Positions 23,464 through 30,387 of a DNA stretch of 47,342 nt are shown here, piece by piece. The DNA is from an uncultured Schlesneria sp. (GTDB lineage Bacteria; Planctomycetota; Planctomycetia; Planctomycetales; Planctomycetaceae). Below the pieces are notes generated by a model. It made no database searches and had not been told where the DNA came from. It saw only the letters and a program-made list of their open reading frames with translations. Positions within the stretch are counted from its first letter, which is position 1, and each line of letters begins with the position of its first letter. The stretch is from contig CAILLA010000203.1 in assembly GCA_903834925.1 (NCBI GenBank), positions 1-47,342 of the forward strand, written 5' to 3'. Both the position numbers and the translations under genes were made by a program.

Positions 23464-24106
23464 AAGAATCAATGAGTCTTTGAAGGATTTCCGGTGATTT
23501 TCAAGCCCGATTTTTTTAACGAGATGTCGGTCTTGTCGTCGATTGAGATCGCTTCTATAACCCCGTCGTTCGGCAGACATCATACGATTCCGTCGGAGGT
23601 GCCAAAACTATTGCGAGGGTTTGGATCGATTCAACAGTGAGTGCTAGACACTACTGGATCCCACCCTATTCGCTTGCGACTCCACCGTCGCAATCCCGAT
23701 GTCCCGCCGAACATTTGAAACCGCGATGCCCTATCAAGAGTATCGCGGTTTCTTGCATTATTGGATTGCGTTGCGGAGGTGGGGCAAACAATGGCTGCCG
23801 TGAAGAGATGCGAGTCCGTCTATCAACAAATCTCTTTCGCCGTTGATTCGTGGAAATTAACAAGGTTCTGACCGGAACTCTGCTTGACGTCTCCTGTTCA
23901 AGTGGCTGTTTCAATTTCAACGGCGGGCAATTATCGCGTGTCGAAACGGGACAGAAAATCAAAGGGTGGTTGCAAATCAGTTTTGTTGATCGTTCGACGC
24001 TTGATCTTTTGAAGTAACCGGAGCACAATCCCCCAGCCCTTCGAGTATTGCCGCTCAGTCTCAATTCGCTACACGCCAAACGGTATTCAAAACAAGGCAA
24101 TTGACC
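23464..24106. other. Gene-free 643-base intergenic region
   Basis: No plausible coding frame; a 69-codon frame at 23637-23846 looks random in composition. One strong hairpin lies at 23717-23752. The remaining sequence should hold the promoter of the six-gene operon that begins at 24107, but no clear -35/-10 pair was recognised. Confidence 0.55.
23717..23752 (+). terminator. Hairpin, possible terminator
   Basis: A perfect 11-base-pair stem, GAAACCGCGAT with ATCGCGGTTTC, with a 14-base loop. The arm ends in TTTC and is followed by TTGCATTATT. It lies 250 bases after the RND pump stop and would insulate the downstream operon. Confidence 0.5.
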
Positions 24107-25957
24107 ATGCGCGTTGTTGTCAAAAATAAAGAGATTTCGGTTCGGGCGATCGCTGGAACGCAAGTCGTTCTTCTGGGACTCAACGCCGAAGAAAAAGCCG
24201 CGAAAGGGCTTTTGGGGTTTTCGATTTCACGTCGGAAAGGAAATACCGGTACTTTTCAGGCGATCGGCGGCAATCATGGGTTTGAAGGGGTCGCTAGTGA
24301 AGCACCCGTCATTCAGGCGTTTCAATGGGGCGACTATACCGTCGAACCGAAAACGACCTATACCTATCGAGTGACTCCCCTTTACGGCACTCCAAAAGCT
24401 CCCGTACAGCGCGACACTGTGGAGTTGACGATTACGACGGAAGACCCGGAAGGAGATGTTCACGGGATCTATTTCAATCGAGGAGTTGCAGGTAGCCAGG
24501 CGTATGCCCGGAAGTTTGGCAGCTACCGCCGTTGGTATAAGGATGATGCTCAAGAGCAAGATCCTGAAAAGATGACGTATACCGAATTCCTCAAACCCCA
24601 GGATGTCCCGAACCGTGAGGCCTTCAATTGGCTGTCGCGCGGGTTAGAAAAAGCCCTTCTTGATTATATCGCCCAAGCAGATGGCCCAAGCTACTCGTTA
24701 CGAGCCGCGATCTATGAACTTACCTCAATTCCTGTCATCCAGGCTTTTGTCGATGCATTGGAGCGTGGGGTCGATGTTCAAATTGTGCATCACGCGAAAC
24801 GCGAATCCGTATCCCAACTCAAACAGAATTCGTCAGCTGTCACAACGGTGACCTTTTCGGACTCTGAGGAAGGTCCGGTCGAATATAAGAAACGAGCGAT
24901 TGTTGAAATTGATTCGGGAGACGCCGTTTGTCGAGCCGCCAACGATTCTGTCGCGCGGGTTGGTGTACGGGAAAAAGCGAACCTTCCCGCATTCTCTAGA
25001 ATGTTGATTCCTCGAACAATCACTCAAATCTCGCACAACAAGTTCATCGTCCTTTTAAAGGACGGAGAGCCCGTGCAGGTCTGGACGGGGTCAACGAATT
25101 TGACCGACGGCGGTATCTTCGGTCAATCCAATGTCGGACACATCGTTCGCGATCCCAAGGTCGCCAAAAAGTACTATGAATACTGGCAGAAAGTCTCTAA
25201 AGACCCGAAAAAGAAATCGGCGAAAACCGATCAGCAGGACGAAGGAATGAAGAATTGGACGGTCAGCCAGCAACCGGATCTGGTCGGACCCCCTCCCCGG
25301 GCGTCAATCACCCCCGTCTTCTCGCCGCGACTGACAAAAGGGATGTTGGACTGGTATGCAGAACGATTGGACTCCGCGACAAGTTCCGTCTTTTTCACGG
25401 CCGCGTTTTCTGTTGCAGATGAAATCTACGACAAGGTTGTGAAGTCGAAGAAGGCTAAGCCTGGTAATCCGTATCTGCGTTATTTGTTGTTGGAGGGCAA
25501 AGGGGGACTACTCAAAGACAAATATCCAGAGATGGCGAAGTGTAAGCAAAATCGTATTGCCTGGGGGGAAACGTTGCGAAGGCCGGGAGAAAATGAGGAA
25601 CTCGAAACGCTCTCGGGACTTAACGAGAATGTGAATTACTTACACACGAAATATATGCTCGTCGATCCACTTTCTGACGATCCGATTGTGATCACTGGTT
25701 CCGCCAATTTCAGTACGGCCTCCACCATGGATAATGATGAGAACATGCTGATTATTCGAGGTAACACTCGCGTGGCGGACGTATTTCTCACCGAATTTAT
25801 GCGGCTGTTCAATCATTTCCGTGCACGAAATGAACTGAATAAGCTCAGGGGGGAAGCTGAAACGCAGGCCCGTTTCCTGACATCAGATGATTCCTGGGCC
25901 ACGAAATATTTTACGGCAGGAACGCCGGAAGAATCTGAGAGATTACTTTTTAGCTAG
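24107..25957 (+). CDS. Phospholipase D-like protein with N-terminal fibronectin-like domain
   Basis: 616 residues, no signal peptide. Residues about 1-120 are beta-rich and end in a TYTYRVTPLYG segment like a fibronectin type III strand. Two PLD half-sites follow. The second is canonical, H513-x-K515-x4-D520, followed by GSANFS. The first has H310-x-K312 and a following GSTNLT, but the Asp expected at 317 is Leu, with Asp319 two residues later. The His/Lys pairs needed for a phospho-enzyme intermediate are present in both halves. Family members cleave or transfer phosphodiesters in lipids or nucleic acids. The ATG at 24107 has AAGG nine bases upstream. It heads a six-gene co-directional operon, with 58 bases before the next gene. 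Confidence 0.84.
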   Translation: MRVVVKNKEISVRAIAGTQVVLLGLNAEEKAAKGLLGFSISRRKGNTGTFQAIGGNHGFEGVASEAPVIQAFQWGDYTVEPKTTYTYRVTPLYGTPKAPVQRDTVELTITTEDPEGDVHGIYFNRGVAGSQAYARKFGSYRRWYKDDAQEQDPEKMTYTEFLKPQDVPNREAFNWLSRGLEKALLDYIAQADGPSYSLRAAIYELTSIPVIQAFVDALERGVDVQIVHHAKRESVSQLKQNSSAVTTVTFSDSEEGPVEYKKRAIVEIDSGDAVCRAANDSVARVGVREKANLPAFSRMLIPRTITQISHNKFIVLLKDGEPVQVWTGSTNLTDGGIFGQSNVGHIVRDPKVAKKYYEYWQKVSKDPKKKSAKTDQQDEGMKNWTVSQQPDLVGPPPRASITPVFSPRLTKGMLDWYAERLDSATSSVFFTAAFSVADEIYDKVVKSKKAKPGNPYLRYLLLEGKGGLLKDKYPEMAKCKQNRIAWGETLRRPGENEELETLSGLNENVNYLHTKYMLVDPLSDDPIVITGSANFSTASTMDNDENMLIIRGNTRVADVFLTEFMRLFNHFRARNELNKLRGEAETQARFLTSDDSWATKYFTAGTPEESERLLFS

Positions 25958-26015
25958 TATTGTTTTGTCGCGCAAACAACCGTTTTACAATAGGTTCACT
26001 GAGGGAGCATCTGAA

Positions 26016-26555
26016 ATGGCAGATAGCGATGCTGGAAAGAAGGGGACTGGCGAAGTGATGATTGGCGGACCCTTCTCCCACCAGGAGATCGGCGCGAGCC
26101 TTCTGCCTCGCGAAGGTCAGAACTTAACACAAATCGAGCGTGACAAGCTTTGGCGAATTTTTCAGCAGATCGGATATTTCTGGGACGATTTGCACTCATC
26201 GGCAAAAGATTCGGCCAACCTCAAAAGCACCTGGCTGGAATTTATCGAAGCCAAGACGACGTGCGAACCGACCTACGTTGCAGAATACTCAAATGCAGCG
26301 TCTGTCGTCGACGAATTGATCGAATTGTATGGTGAGAAGAAGGCATTTGCACTGTTGTTTCAGAACAATGGTATTCCCAAAAATCCTCCCCGTCCGCCAC
26401 TCACGCGTCTGGAACATGCCAAGAAGTATGTTGTCGACGAATTCATCCGCGTGAATGTTGTTGCGAGTGGTTTTAAGAGTTTTGGCGGTAAAAACTATTC
26501 AGGATACCTGGGTGGTTCCCGGTACAACCTGAAGCCGCGTGTTCGTGTTGAATAA
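26016..26555 (+). CDS. Small subunit-like partner of the GMC oxidoreductase
   Basis: 179 residues, mostly helical, no Tat or Sec signal visible. The ATG at 26016 has GAGGGAG eight bases upstream; an earlier in-frame start at 25887 would overlap the PLD gene and is rejected. The C-terminus (FKSFGGKNYSGYLGGS) and the gene's position 30 bases before the GMC gene recall the small gamma subunits of membrane or periplasmic FAD dehydrogenases (gluconate 2-dehydrogenase subunit 3, or fructose/sorbitol dehydrogenase small subunit), which help fold and export the large subunit. Sequence similarity is weak by eye, so the assignment rests mainly on context. The lack of a signal suggests a cytoplasmic pair. 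Confidence 0.6.
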   Translation: MADSDAGKKGTGEVMIGGPFSHQEIGASLLPREGQNLTQIERDKLWRIFQQIGYFWDDLHSSAKDSANLKSTWLEFIEAKTTCEPTYVAEYSNAASVVDELIELYGEKKAFALLFQNNGIPKNPPRPPLTRLEHAKKYVVDEFIRVNVVASGFKSFGGKNYSGYLGGSRYNLKPRVRVE

Positions 26556-26585
26556 TAACGGATTAAGCTTCGCAGGAGATCCAAC

Positions 26586-28163
26586 ATGAAGCAGGAATAT
26601 GAATACGTCATCGTCGGCTCTGGCGTGGCAGGTTCTACTGTCGCCAAGCGACTGCTAGAGCATAATCGAAGTGCCTCGATACTGATTCTTGAGGCCGGTC
26701 CCCAGGTGGAAGCAAAGATTCGGCGCTTCTGGTGGGACTACGTTGTTCATGCCAACGGCGTTGAACACAAGGCCTACGATTTTACCTGTGATCAACCGGG
26801 AGAATCGACGTCATCGGGCAATACCAGATTTCTGGTTGAAGGCTCACGAGTGATGATGTACGGAGGTTCGACGGTCCACTGGGGCGGATGGTGTCTGCGA
26901 TTTAAGCCGGAAGATTTCAAACTTCTTTCCAATACGGGTGACGGTGGCGACTGGCCAATCTCGTACGAAGACCTTGACCCCTATTATTACCAGGCCGAAG
27001 ACCATTTATCCGTCTGTGGAGACATTGACGAGTCCTGGAATAAATTGATGCGAAAGCCAAATACTCCGTATCCGCGACCACCCTTCTGGTGGACGGCTCC
27101 TGATGAAGAAATGATCAAGGCTTTCAAAAAGAATAACATCGAGCCTGGTAAGATGCCCGTCGCTCGCTATCGGAAATGCATGACCACAGGGACGTGCAAA
27201 TATTGTCCGTTGGGATCACGTTTTTCAGGGCAATTAGTTCTCGATGAACTTCTGGCTGACCGCCGAAATTTGAACTTCAAGGTGATTGGAAGTGCCCCAG
27301 CCACGCAGGTCCTGGTTGATTCGAAAAAACGAATTACCGGTGTGGAATACCTTGATCTGACGACAGGCGAAACGAAGCAGGTCTTTGGTGGGACTGTCGT
27401 CGTTTGTTCGGGTACGTATGAGTCGCCCAAACTGTTGATGCTCTCCCGAAATCAGTACTGGGACAACGGTATCGGAAACGATCACGATTTGTTGGGTCGA
27501 TATCTCGTTTCCCATTCGATGCTCAAAGTCCGAGGTCAGTTGGACCAGAATAAAGAACGATGGTTTGCTGAGTACGATTTTCCATCTTTGATGTCTCGGA
27601 CATACGACACGGAAGAGTATCAGAAGAAGAACAAGATCTTCCTTTTCAAGAACCGCGCACTACCGGATATCGACCTGGCGGGATTGATGATTGCCGGACT
27701 TTCTCGCAAAGAGATCGACAAGCAACTGACGGCGAGTCGGCAGCAAGAGTTGCAGGCCTTTATGGAAGAAAAGGGAGACAAAGACAATCGGATCACTTTG
27801 GCGAATGGCAAAAACCGATTTGGTCTGCCGAAAATGAAGGCACACTTTGATCGAACTCCCGATGCTCAAAAAAATGGCGACAATTGGCTGAAACTGATGG
27901 AAAAGGTCGTTGCCGATATGGGTTATAAGGTGATTAAGTCCGAAATACAGGACCCGGGAGGCCATCACTCGACGGGAACTTGCCGAATGGGTCGTAACCC
28001 TGAGGAAGGGGTTACCGATGCGGACCTGCGGGTTTTTGGCACTGACAACTTGTATGTTTGTTCGAATGCCGTTTTCCCGTCAGGAGCGGCTGTCAATCCG
28101 ACGTTGACCTTGACGGCACTTGCGTTTCGCCTGGGTGATCATCTGGCAAAAAATCGGCCTTAA
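26586..28163 (+). CDS. GMC-family FAD oxidoreductase with CX5CX2C cluster
   Basis: 525 residues. The FAD-binding Rossmann motif GSGVAG is at 11-16. The GMC C-terminal block shows His460/His461 in GHHSTGTCRMG and Asn504 in AVNPTLTLTALA, the usual catalytic pair. An unusual insert contains Cys198, Cys204 and Cys207 followed by PLGSRFSG. This resembles the iron-sulfur cluster motif of bacterial three-subunit FAD-glucose and fructose dehydrogenases, which passes electrons onward without needing oxygen. The enzyme probably oxidises an alcohol or sugar-like substrate. The start ATG has AGGAG nine bases upstream. It sits between its likely small subunit and a ferritin-like gene. No cytochrome subunit is encoded nearby, so the electron acceptor is unknown. 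Confidence 0.9.
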   Translation: MKQEYEYVIVGSGVAGSTVAKRLLEHNRSASILILEAGPQVEAKIRRFWWDYVVHANGVEHKAYDFTCDQPGESTSSGNTRFLVEGSRVMMYGGSTVHWGGWCLRFKPEDFKLLSNTGDGGDWPISYEDLDPYYYQAEDHLSVCGDIDESWNKLMRKPNTPYPRPPFWWTAPDEEMIKAFKKNNIEPGKMPVARYRKCMTTGTCKYCPLGSRFSGQLVLDELLADRRNLNFKVIGSAPATQVLVDSKKRITGVEYLDLTTGETKQVFGGTVVVCSGTYESPKLLMLSRNQYWDNGIGNDHDLLGRYLVSHSMLKVRGQLDQNKERWFAEYDFPSLMSRTYDTEEYQKKNKIFLFKNRALPDIDLAGLMIAGLSRKEIDKQLTASRQQELQAFMEEKGDKDNRITLANGKNRFGLPKMKAHFDRTPDAQKNGDNWLKLMEKVVADMGYKVIKSEIQDPGGHHSTGTCRMGRNPEEGVTDADLRVFGTDNLYVCSNAVFPSGAAVNPTLTLTALAFRLGDHLAKNRP

Positions 28164-28258
28164 TCGATCATAATTTCCATACGACACCGCAAACGATTAC
28201 TTCCGTCTTGGATTTTCTGGTTAAAGACGCAATCGGTTCAATAGAAGCGAGTATCGGC

Positions 28259-29425
28259 ATGACCTCTCATCCGAATGAAATTGCAGCCATTCTGGGGCTC
28301 GAATCCCCCTCGTTAAAGCAGTTACTTGAGTGTAAGGCTCAAATTTCAGAACAGTCGTTTGGTCGACTGTCGAAAGAAGACGCGGGCAAGGCACGTGAGC
28401 AACAGAACCTTGATTGGTTAAAGAAATCGTTGCAAGCGGCCATTACACTGGAATTCGCCACAATTCCACCGTACCTCTCTGCTTTGTGGTCGATCAAAGA
28501 CGAGCTTCATCCGGTTGCGAAATCGATCCGAGAAGTCGCCCAGGAAGAAATGTTGCATATGGCATTAGCCTGCAACATGCTTGCATCGCTGGGGGTTACT
28601 CCTCAAATCAACACGGCCGTTCCGACATATCCTGGTTCGTTACCTGGTGGCGTACACGAAGGCTTGATCGTGGGACTGCAGGGGCTGACAAAGTCCGTGT
28701 TGAAAACGTTCCTCTGGATCGAACGACCAGTCGAAGGCGTTCCGATCGAGCAGCCGTATGCCGAGCCAGGCAACAACACCAATTTTCGCAGCGGAAAGCT
28801 GAAGGAAGCATTCAAGTATGACGCCACGATTGGCGAATTCTACGATAAGATCAAAGAAGCATTTCACATCTACGACACTGATCCAAAGAATTCCAAGTTG
28901 ATTCCCGATCGCCAGATTGCCGGCCCCTTGGCTTGGGCTGTTATCCGCAATCTTGATAACGTGGAATACGCGATTGAATTAATCAAACATCAGGGTGAAG
29001 GTGCGGACAATAATCCCGAAGAAGCGAAGGGGTTCTTGTCACATTTTTACCGCTTTCTCGAGGTTTATAACGAGCAACAATACCAATGGAACCCGAAAAA
29101 GAAGGTGCTGGAGGTCGTTGGAAAACTTGAATTCCCGGAAGTCTGGCCAATGGCCGAAGTCCCGGCCGGTGGTTACAAGAAAGAAGATGTCTCGGAAGAG
29201 GTGTGGTACTACCTTGATGAGTTTGACAACACCTACACCAGGCTGGTCAATCAGCTTCAAGGAGCCTGGACGCTCGGTGGGCAAGCATCACTTATCCGAG
29301 CTTATGAAACGATGTTCGAACTCGAAAAATACGCAAAACCCCTGATGCGCATTCGTACGCCGTTTGGTGGCGGGGAAACTTACGGGCCGTGCTTCCGCTA
29401 CAAGCCGGATCAATCGACGACGTAA
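28259..29425 (+). CDS. Ferritin-like domain protein (VioB/iminophenyl-pyruvate dimer synthase-type)
   Basis: About 388 residues. It matches the ferritin-like domain found at the C-terminus of VioB/RebD, the enzymes that couple oxidised tryptophan imines in violacein and rebeccamycin synthesis. The helix LQAAITLEFATIPPYLSALW and the helix VAQEEMLHMALACNMLASLG hold the Glu and Glu-x2-His residues expected for a diiron-type site. The N-terminal beta domain and heme region of full VioB are missing, so this is a stand-alone domain protein. It could be an oxidase or oxygenase working with the GMC enzyme. The start is uncertain: ATG 28259 is used, with a GAAGCGAG about nine bases before; a TTG at 28208 would add 17 residues. 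Confidence 0.75.
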   Translation: MTSHPNEIAAILGLESPSLKQLLECKAQISEQSFGRLSKEDAGKAREQQNLDWLKKSLQAAITLEFATIPPYLSALWSIKDELHPVAKSIREVAQEEMLHMALACNMLASLGVTPQINTAVPTYPGSLPGGVHEGLIVGLQGLTKSVLKTFLWIERPVEGVPIEQPYAEPGNNTNFRSGKLKEAFKYDATIGEFYDKIKEAFHIYDTDPKNSKLIPDRQIAGPLAWAVIRNLDNVEYAIELIKHQGEGADNNPEEAKGFLSHFYRFLEVYNEQQYQWNPKKKVLEVVGKLEFPEVWPMAEVPAGGYKKEDVSEEVWYYLDEFDNTYTRLVNQLQGAWTLGGQASLIRAYETMFELEKYAKPLMRIRTPFGGGETYGPCFRYKPDQSTT

Positions 29426-29482
29426 TCGAGACGAGACGCATGCTCTTTTAACAGTGCCTACACAGCCTAAGGAACATTTGTG

Positions 29483-29932
29483 ATGTCCAATAATTCCATG
29501 CAATCGCGGCGAGTTGTGCAAACGGTAGAACTGGGAGCACCTGCAGCACAAGTCTGGGATCTGGTAGGCGGTTTTTTCACTCTTCATCAATGGCACCCGG
29601 ATATCGTAAAAACCGAAGTCCCTGCGAACCAGACCGAAGTCCACGCGATTCGGCGGATCCTTACCTTTCCCGGTCAACCGACGACCACCGAAGAACTTCT
29701 GACGATGGACAACATTGGTTTTCAATACCGATACAAATGGCACGCAGGGGAATGGGGCGAACGGATCAAAGACTATTTTGCAGAGATTCGTGTGTTCGAA
29801 ACGGAAATGGGGCGACATTGTGTCATGCAATGGTCGTCAACGTTTACATATACAGAAGATGCCTTAAGTGAATTCTACTGGAATGGGTTTCGCGCTTTGC
29901 AATCGCGATTTCCACTGACTGATAAAGTCTAA
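29483..29932 (+). CDS. SRPBCC-family (polyketide cyclase/START-like) protein
   Basis: 149 residues forming one helix-grip domain. The opening VVQTVELGAPAAQVWDLVGGF and the WHPDI segment are characteristic of the polyketide cyclase/dehydrase-type SRPBCC family, which binds hydrophobic small molecules in a deep pocket and sometimes catalyses cyclisation. The ending includes a typical long C-terminal helix (EFYWNGFRALQSRF). The ATG at 29483 has AAGGA nine bases upstream. Its place between the ferritin-like and unknown genes suggests it binds, carries or shapes a pathway intermediate. The ligand is unknown. Confidence 0.83.
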   Translation: MSNNSMQSRRVVQTVELGAPAAQVWDLVGGFFTLHQWHPDIVKTEVPANQTEVHAIRRILTFPGQPTTTEELLTMDNIGFQYRYKWHAGEWGERIKDYFAEIRVFETEMGRHCVMQWSSTFTYTEDALSEFYWNGFRALQSRFPLTDKV

Positions 29933-29982
29933 CGCGCTGTCACAAGTCTTTTTTCCGAAACTGTCGCACGTGGAGAGATCTA

Positions 29983-30387
29983 ATGGGAAGCTATGTTGAA
30001 ATCAATGATACGCTTCAACTGACAACGGAACAGGGTTTCCCAGTTGATATTCTCGACCTGGAAAAACACCGCAAATCGGCGGTGAAACTGAGCGATGTTG
30101 CCGATCGTATTTTCGAATTCAATGACAAGCCGAGCGCAAGAATCTTTCAGCTTGATCCCGTACGCGTCTACTACGTCCACAATATCAATGGAAAATGGCT
30201 GTTCTGGGGACGAGTCTTCATTCAATCCCAACACATCCACAAGAAGCTGGGACCCGATGGAAGCTGGAAAGAAGGAGATTGGGTGACCTCGGGAACGTAC
30301 AAAATTATCGATATTTATGACCCGGCTTACCAGGAAGCATTCACACGTCACGAAGCCCCGTTGGATCGGAACTATTTTATTTCATGA
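29983..30387 (+). CDS. Conserved-looking hypothetical protein, last gene of the GMC/ferritin operon
   Basis: 134 residues of no family I recognise. It is rich in aromatic residues and beta strands (VRVYYVHNINGKWLFWGRVF; TSGTYKIIDIYDP), with no signal peptide, membrane segment or cysteine. GGAGAG lies five bases before the ATG, a strong site. It follows the SRPBCC gene by 50 bases and is the last plus-strand gene before a convergent gene. Composition and ribosome binding site match its neighbours, so it is very likely a real member of the operon. Confidence 0.75.
   Translation: MGSYVEINDTLQLTTEQGFPVDILDLEKHRKSAVKLSDVADRIFEFNDKPSARIFQLDPVRVYYVHNINGKWLFWGRVFIQSQHIHKKLGPDGSWKEGDWVTSGTYKIIDIYDPAYQEAFTRHEAPLDRNYFIS

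Follow-up and report, generated by a model that had tools for sequence, protein, structure and literature searches.

A six-gene cluster joining a GMC flavoenzyme to a PF12902 ferritin-like protein in Planctomycetota and Bacteroidota

Introduction

What might a flavoenzyme, a ferritin-like protein and four neighbors of unlike families do together in a planctomycete? The question is raised by a 47,342-nucleotide contig of an uncultured Schlesneria sp. (CAILLA010000203.1, assembly GCA_903834925.1), analyzed over its whole length and called the window here. Between positions 24107 and 30387 it carries six plus-strand open reading frames (ORFs) in the order PLD, SML, GMC, FER, SRPBCC and U134, where SML is a small protein, FER the ferritin-like protein and U134 a protein of 134 residues. 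We give about an even chance to the reading that the six together make up a working operon, spread by horizontal transfer, which encodes an oxidative pathway in the cytosol; we infer every catalytic step of this pathway, the order of the steps, the substrate and the product. An earlier note made from the letters of the sequence had known of no named pathway with this set, and our searches of the open-access literature agree, as the gene combination was nowhere described.

Conservation of the gene set

A contig scan with the GMC alignment returned 15 loci, one in SZAS-6, a planctomycete of the same genus, and 14 in Tenacibaculum, Flavivirga, Bizionia, Kordia, Crocinitomix and Flavobacteriaceae. 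Adding the window and another genome (G699, locus L054) brings the total to 17 genomes, two from Planctomycetota and 15 from Bacteroidota. All six genes lie in a single stretch in 14 of the 17, and five of the six do so in 16; the seventeenth, G449, is split across two contigs (L034 and L055) that each end inside the GMC gene and between them hold all six. The order PLD-SML-GMC-FER is kept in 16/17, the exception being G449, with PLD at the far end. SRPBCC lies outside the cluster in two loci (L024, L036), at another locus beside Dyp peroxidase and cupin genes, while in three more (L026, L027, L035) it is the copy beside Dyp, located after U134. SZAS-6 keeps all six in the window's order, except that U134 is preceded by two inserted genes, one for a P450 and one for a xylose-isomerase-like TIM barrel. 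The genes are thus kept together in related genomes, as the operon proposed in the earlier note would have it, and because the arrangement recurs in another phylum we regard it as more than chance.

Of 58 relatives besides the Schlesneria genome itself, only SZAS-6 gave a match to U134, and likewise to SML; both are absent from 13 of the 14 other members of the genus that were searched. In a 392-genome sample of the phylum SML occurred only in the window's own genome, and a broader SML model found none outside it in a second, partly overlapping sample of 294 genomes (a limited number of candidates was scored per genome in both). The genes flanking the cluster are unlike, by eye, between the window and SZAS-6. 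Such a rare and patchy distribution suggests horizontal transfer, and the cluster has probably been acquired in this way; its GC content (49.5% vs 52.5% in the remainder of the window) is a weak sign of the same. In trees of both FER and GMC, the window and SZAS-6 pair with each other and then join the flavobacterial sequences. The window U134 shares 64–74% identity with flavobacterial U134 vs about 52% with that of SZAS-6, which itself shares 51–55% with the flavobacterial proteins; separate acquisition could account for this, and faster change in SZAS-6 explains it equally well.

Among 299 Flavobacteriaceae genomes, cluster-type SML and U134 occur in the same four, with a chance probability of 3e-9 if genomes were independent, which they are not; each list has a fifth entry, a distant SML (G668) for the one and a match with stops (6.8e-4, G458) for the other. 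Five flavobacterial loci occupy one common chromosomal site and three another. The 28 gene comparisons made within five close pairs put the ratio of nonsynonymous to synonymous substitution rates (dN/dS) between 0.015 and 0.14, several synonymous rates being near saturation. The values for U134 were 0.015–0.060 (five close Flavobacteriaceae pairs) and the lowest of the genes in four of the five, by which measure U134 is under purifying selection.

Cluster layout and family assignments

The six genes are separated by 58, 30, 44, 54 and 50 bases, so that the one-strand layout described earlier stands, with gaps of 30–58 rather than 30–95 bases. Its boundaries are also as described: a 643-base gap containing a hairpin upstream, and a convergent gene downstream at a distance of 98 bases. 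Ribosome-binding sites had been called good for most genes; by eye they are good for GMC, SRPBCC and U134, plausible for SML and weak for PLD, and none is evident for FER at TTG 28208. The hairpin (Table 1) is possibly the terminator of the gene upstream of the cluster. It is not among the sites listed by a terminator scan of the window, and shuffled sequence yields promoter-like and terminator-like sites at least as often as the window does. No tRNA was found in the window.

A Pfam scan confirmed the PLD-like (PF13091), GMC, PF12902 and SRPBCC (PF10604) families that had been read from the sequence, and gave zero matches for SML and U134. NCBIfam gave no match above cut-off for any of the six proteins, and PADLOC gave weak matches for PLD and none for the other five up to E 0.01. 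The remaining assignments of the earlier note, namely a probable Fe-S cluster in GMC, a small dehydrogenase-like subunit, the VioB/RebD family for the ferritin-like protein and the lack of any family for the 134-residue protein, agree with the evidence given below. The six proteins contain no CxxCH motif, strong membrane segment or twin-arginine translocation (Tat)-type start, and SRPBCC has a single early RR without the hydrophobic stretch typical of a Tat signal. From their sequences the enzymes look cytosolic, and none of the six shows an evident export signal or membrane segment.

Table 1. Positions of the cluster genes and of the upstream hairpin in the window.
Feature	Position	Strand	Description
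Hairpin	23717..23752		16-nt arms, 88% complementary, 4-nt loop; inside the upstream gap
PLD	24107..25957	+	Two PLDc_2 domains; PF13091 4.2e-22
SML	26016..26555	+	179-residue helical protein; no Pfam match
GMC flavoenzyme	26586..28163	+	Pfam match; C198-x5-C204-x2-C207, H98, H461, N504
FER	28208..29425	+	Stand-alone PF12902 ferritin-like protein, VioB/RebD family, 405 residues
SRPBCC	29480..29932	+	Polyketide cyclase/lipid transport; PF10604 2.2e-17
U134	29983..30387	+	134 residues; no Pfam or NCBIfam match

The SML-GMC flavoenzyme

The solved structures nearest to GMC are those of glucose dehydrogenase dependent on flavin adenine dinucleotide (FAD; 1.5e-55) and fructose dehydrogenase (6.9e-49), and by sequence GMC is an enzyme of this kind. 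Its three cysteines C198, C204 and C207 are invariant in 22/22 GMC proteins compared and form a probable 3Fe-4S cluster site. A published study (PMC6719666) names Cys212, Cys218 and Cys222 as ligands of such a cluster, next to which a small hitchhiker subunit is bound. The glucose dehydrogenase alpha-gamma complex of Burkholderia cepacia (PDB: 6a2u) and fructose dehydrogenase (PDB: 7w2j) share with the window the GMC family, the three 3Fe-4S cysteines and a separate, adjacent gene for a small subunit; window His98 aligns with chain position 105 of 6a2u, a His contacting FAD. They differ in cysteine spacing (C-x5-C-x3-C there, C-x5-C-x2-C here), in the cytochrome subunit, for which the six proteins searched offer no CxxCH motif and the cluster no gene, and in the start of the small subunit, as the window SML is without a Tat-type one.

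SML adjoins GMC in all 17 genomes and is probably its small (gamma-like) subunit. The two genes share 4 bases at 9 of 15 loci, with starts chosen by rule, and are instead separated by a gap in the window. The SML start at ATG 26016 agrees with relatives, whereas a longer start at 25887 would overlap PLD. A structure model of SML reached a predicted local distance difference test score (pLDDT) of 69, with a low-confidence C-terminus. A distant SML relative in a Bacteroidota genome (L053, G668) begins with a twin-arginine and a hydrophobic stretch and has a sub-threshold TAT_signal match (16.2 bits vs 22.7); the window SML has neither of the two at its start. By eye, the neighbors of the L053 pair are genes for a TRAP transporter, an enolase-type enzyme and an SDR enzyme. 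At L056 (8268–12045) another SML-GMC pair has on one side a protein weakly matching ADP-ribosyltransferase (0.015) and on the other a PA-IIL-like lectin domain.

The ferritin-like protein FER

FER matches PF12902 over profile positions 1–220 of 221 (2.6e-49; 168.5 bits, cut-off 22.3); its start is uncertain, being either TTG 28208 or the in-frame ATG 28259. Residues E82, E114, H117, E172, E264 and H279 are invariant in 26/26 aligned FER proteins and are candidate metal ligands; the alignment is without one paralogue, on contig C83, which the cluster's own profile did not pick up. FER matches also occur in two further relatives (G012 and G058). As in the violacein and indolocarbazole clusters with VioB and RebD, the PF12902 domain is encoded next to a flavoenzyme, and the oxidative cluster includes small partners of a binding type. 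Unlike VioB/RebD, FER is stand-alone and the flavoenzyme is of the GMC alcohol type, not an amino-acid oxidase such as VioA or RebO. Clusters of lodA/lodB with a PF12902 gene, reported from fungi in PMC4417212, likewise place a ferritin-like gene beside an oxidase, but that oxidase is a quinoprotein and PLD, SRPBCC and U134 were not seen there.

The window's own genome has four more PF12902 genes, found beside a trypsin-endonuclease protein, a 624-residue family-less protein, a 301-residue protein and a LodA-like group. The first (L019, contig C115, 5634–9013, minus strand) adjoins a 738-residue fusion of trypsin-like and DNA/RNA non-specific endonuclease domains. The LodA-like group (L021, contig C83, 4594–11240, minus strand) is a row of a LodA-like protein, whose match is just under cut-off, a radical SAM protein, a Trp-halogenase-like flavoenzyme and a PF12902 protein. 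The 624-residue protein (L018, 5413–7287) is related to one of 669 residues (L043, 3867–5876; 21% identity, 3e-11), both being Pfam-less and each near a PF12902 gene.

SRPBCC, U134 and PLD

SRPBCC scores 64.1 bits against PF10604 (cut-off 27.4). U134 was modeled with a pLDDT of 81 and a predicted template modeling score (pTM) of 0.70 as mostly beta with a C-terminal helix. In G449 (L055), U134 and SRPBCC are joined in one 283-residue ORF, followed by a second U134. Given this fusion, the likeliest role of U134 is that of a partner to SRPBCC in binding or catalysis.

The N-terminal ~115 residues of PLD read by eye as Fn3-like. HKD motifs were located in 15/15 aligned PLDs, and the second is canonical in the window protein (H513). 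PLD shows weak similarity to the DrmC and ZacB profiles. A DISARM assignment through DrmC was rejected, with a score of 26.5 bits against an equivalog cut-off of 133, and so was the reading as a phage part, as no phage relative of PLD was found when PLD alone was searched. Of five inspected plasmid regions that carry PLD relatives, one has VgrG nearby, one AbiH and a restriction enzyme and one a toxin-antitoxin pair.

Relatives on plasmids and elsewhere

SML-GMC-FER trios in the order of the window (31–35%, 41–42% and 27–30% identity for the three genes) are present on plasmids of Rhizobium johnstonii, Rhizobium sp. NZLR1 and Methylorubrum extorquens. These three, plus another R. johnstonii plasmid whose FER is broken, gave the only GMC matches above 40%, among the best 20 of 700 records. 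The trio-bearing plasmids are conjugative or mobilizable. A PLD of the same family directly follows FER in Methylorubrum (profile match 4.4e-29). SRPBCC and U134, unlike in the window, were not found in these stretches, and Rhizobium has instead a 437–439-residue protein upstream of the trio (L038, 7150–8463; L040, 7153–8472), with an export signal and CxxCH by eye and a sub-threshold P460 match only. A GMC gene beside FER in broken pieces occurs on a Bradyrhizobium elkanii plasmid (L041, 6257–6911).

GMC-FER pairs that are less closely related, with another small protein next in line, are found on two Rhizobium plasmids and in Gloeothece and Persicobacter, the small protein of the last being compared by eye only. 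The Rhizobium pairs lie with GH15, iolE and TIM-barrel genes, and that of Gloeothece with Dyp peroxidase and VOC genes. The best plasmid match of a flavobacterial Dyp is this Gloeothece Dyp near the GMC-FER pair (39%). A Streptomyces FER has no GMC within its 13 kb.

Proposed pathway

We read a joint function of the cluster from its conservation in 17 genomes of two phyla, the U134-SRPBCC fusion, the presence of SML and U134 in the same four Flavobacteriaceae genomes, the SML-GMC overlaps and the low dN/dS; its redox character is read from the conserved residues of GMC and FER, the trios found elsewhere and the accessory P450, Dyp and cupin genes. SML and GMC would form a flavin/Fe-S dehydrogenase that takes a small molecule and oxidizes an alcohol or sugar-like group of it. 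FER, as a PF12902 metalloenzyme, would act on the carbonyl product by oxidative coupling or oxygenation, or else use or remove peroxide. Its place after GMC is modeled on that of VioB after the flavoenzyme VioA; the order VioA-VioB-VioE and a catalase activity of VioB are covered in a review (PMC9705886). SRPBCC and U134 may jointly be a ligand-binding or catalytic-chaperone part that holds or rearranges the intermediate, in a role comparable to that of VioE, and PLD may form or cleave a phosphodiester or lipid ester in either the substrate or the product. The oxygen-dependent coupling and the lipid or phosphodiester step that had been suggested earlier thus enter as inferred steps. Lineage-specific tailoring could come from the P450 and xylose-isomerase-like TIM barrel, or from the Dyp peroxidase and cupin.

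With less confidence, we would see here a new class of oxidative pathway, a tentative proposal that is somewhat more likely wrong than right. Planctomycetota and marine Bacteroidota would in this way make a metabolite not seen before, with a GMC-small-subunit flavo/Fe-S enzyme feeding a PF12902 metalloenzyme, and U134 would work with SRPBCC as an enzyme or catalytic chaperone of a new type. PF12902 proteins at large would assist diverse oxidases (GMC, LodA, VioA) in oxidation as a general function, rather than being storage ferritins. The cluster is a defined, testable unit, with a gene set common to two phyla, a constrained family-less protein, a fusion that names its partner, and conserved active sites that point to the cofactors worth seeking. 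It is, besides, a compact model for studying the part that PF12902 proteins play next to an oxidase, about which little seems settled outside violacein-type pathways.

A number of observations weigh against a single oxidative operon. No amino-acid oxidase partner as in violacein is present, the sole flavoenzyme of the cluster being the GMC oxidoreductase. For SML no sequence or fold match to a solved small subunit was found, the latter being uninformative given the low-confidence model, and SML-GMC pairs occur without FER, PLD, SRPBCC or U134 nearby in two Bacteroidota genomes (G668 at L053 and G810 at L056). For U134, no solved structure stands out as a fold match, and it is the least similar of the six genes between the window and SZAS-6 (53%). 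The first HKD motif of PLD (H310) lacks its Asp, as in 15/15 aligned PLDs (Asp position judged by eye). The settings of the four PF12902 paralogues are all quite unlike the cluster, and in the FER tree, in which long branches were flagged, the C115 paralogue is the sister of the cluster FERs while the alphaproteobacterial trio FERs lie apart; FER has therefore not simply descended as part of one trio, and the C115 paralogue has no GMC within its 18 kb. Finally, the alphaproteobacterial trios neighbor SIR2, TIR, S8-peptidase and toxin-antitoxin genes.

Alternative explanations

The most serious alternative, which we consider rather unlikely, is a catabolic or detoxifying sugar or polyol dehydrogenase operon. 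SML-GMC would oxidize a glycoside or polyol, FER would only remove peroxide or handle iron, and SRPBCC, U134 and PLD would process the aglycone or phosphodiester for growth. The closeness of GMC to glucose and fructose dehydrogenases fits this explanation, as do the TIM barrel inserted in SZAS-6, the GH15, iolE and TIM-barrel genes of the distant Rhizobium clusters, and the transporter and enzyme genes beside the L053 pair with its Tat-type start. The window cluster, however, has no transporter or regulator belonging to it and its enzymes look cytosolic, and P450, Dyp and SRPBCC speak for chemistry on hydrophobic or aromatic compounds.

We hold it improbable that the genes form a biological-conflict system for defense or antagonism, with the redox trio yielding a reactive product or peroxide and PLD acting as a nuclease or phospholipase effector. 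The plasmid trios with their conflict-type neighbors suggest such a role, and so do the DrmC and ZacB similarity of PLD, the VgrG, AbiH-restriction and toxin-antitoxin genes each near one plasmid-borne PLD relative, and the trypsin-endonuclease protein beside a paralogous FER. Against it stand the missing PADLOC matches of the other five genes, the low DrmC score, and the common chromosomal sites and steady purifying selection, which are unlike a typical defense island. That the genes merely co-travel on a mobile segment without joint function would suit their patchy occurrence, the differing flanks in SZAS-6 and the SML-GMC pairs found alone, but is very improbable given the two-phylum conservation, a set kept after reshuffling, the gene fusion, the tight spacing and the purifying selection.

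Accessory modules and frequent neighbors

In four flavobacterial loci a Dyp peroxidase and cupin module adjoins the main cluster. A separate Dyp peroxidase-SRPBCC-cupin module is also found in flavobacteria (L067, 5020–9642; L068, 4072–8732; L069, 2814–5280), in two of these three loci beside another PLD of the same family. A gene for a TMEM175-like channel lies by the cluster, near or after U134, in 13 of the 14 flavobacterial-type loci (L024–L033 and L035–L037; L034 is cut short), and Lcl_C and DUF6265 proteins are other frequent neighbors of the flavobacterial clusters.

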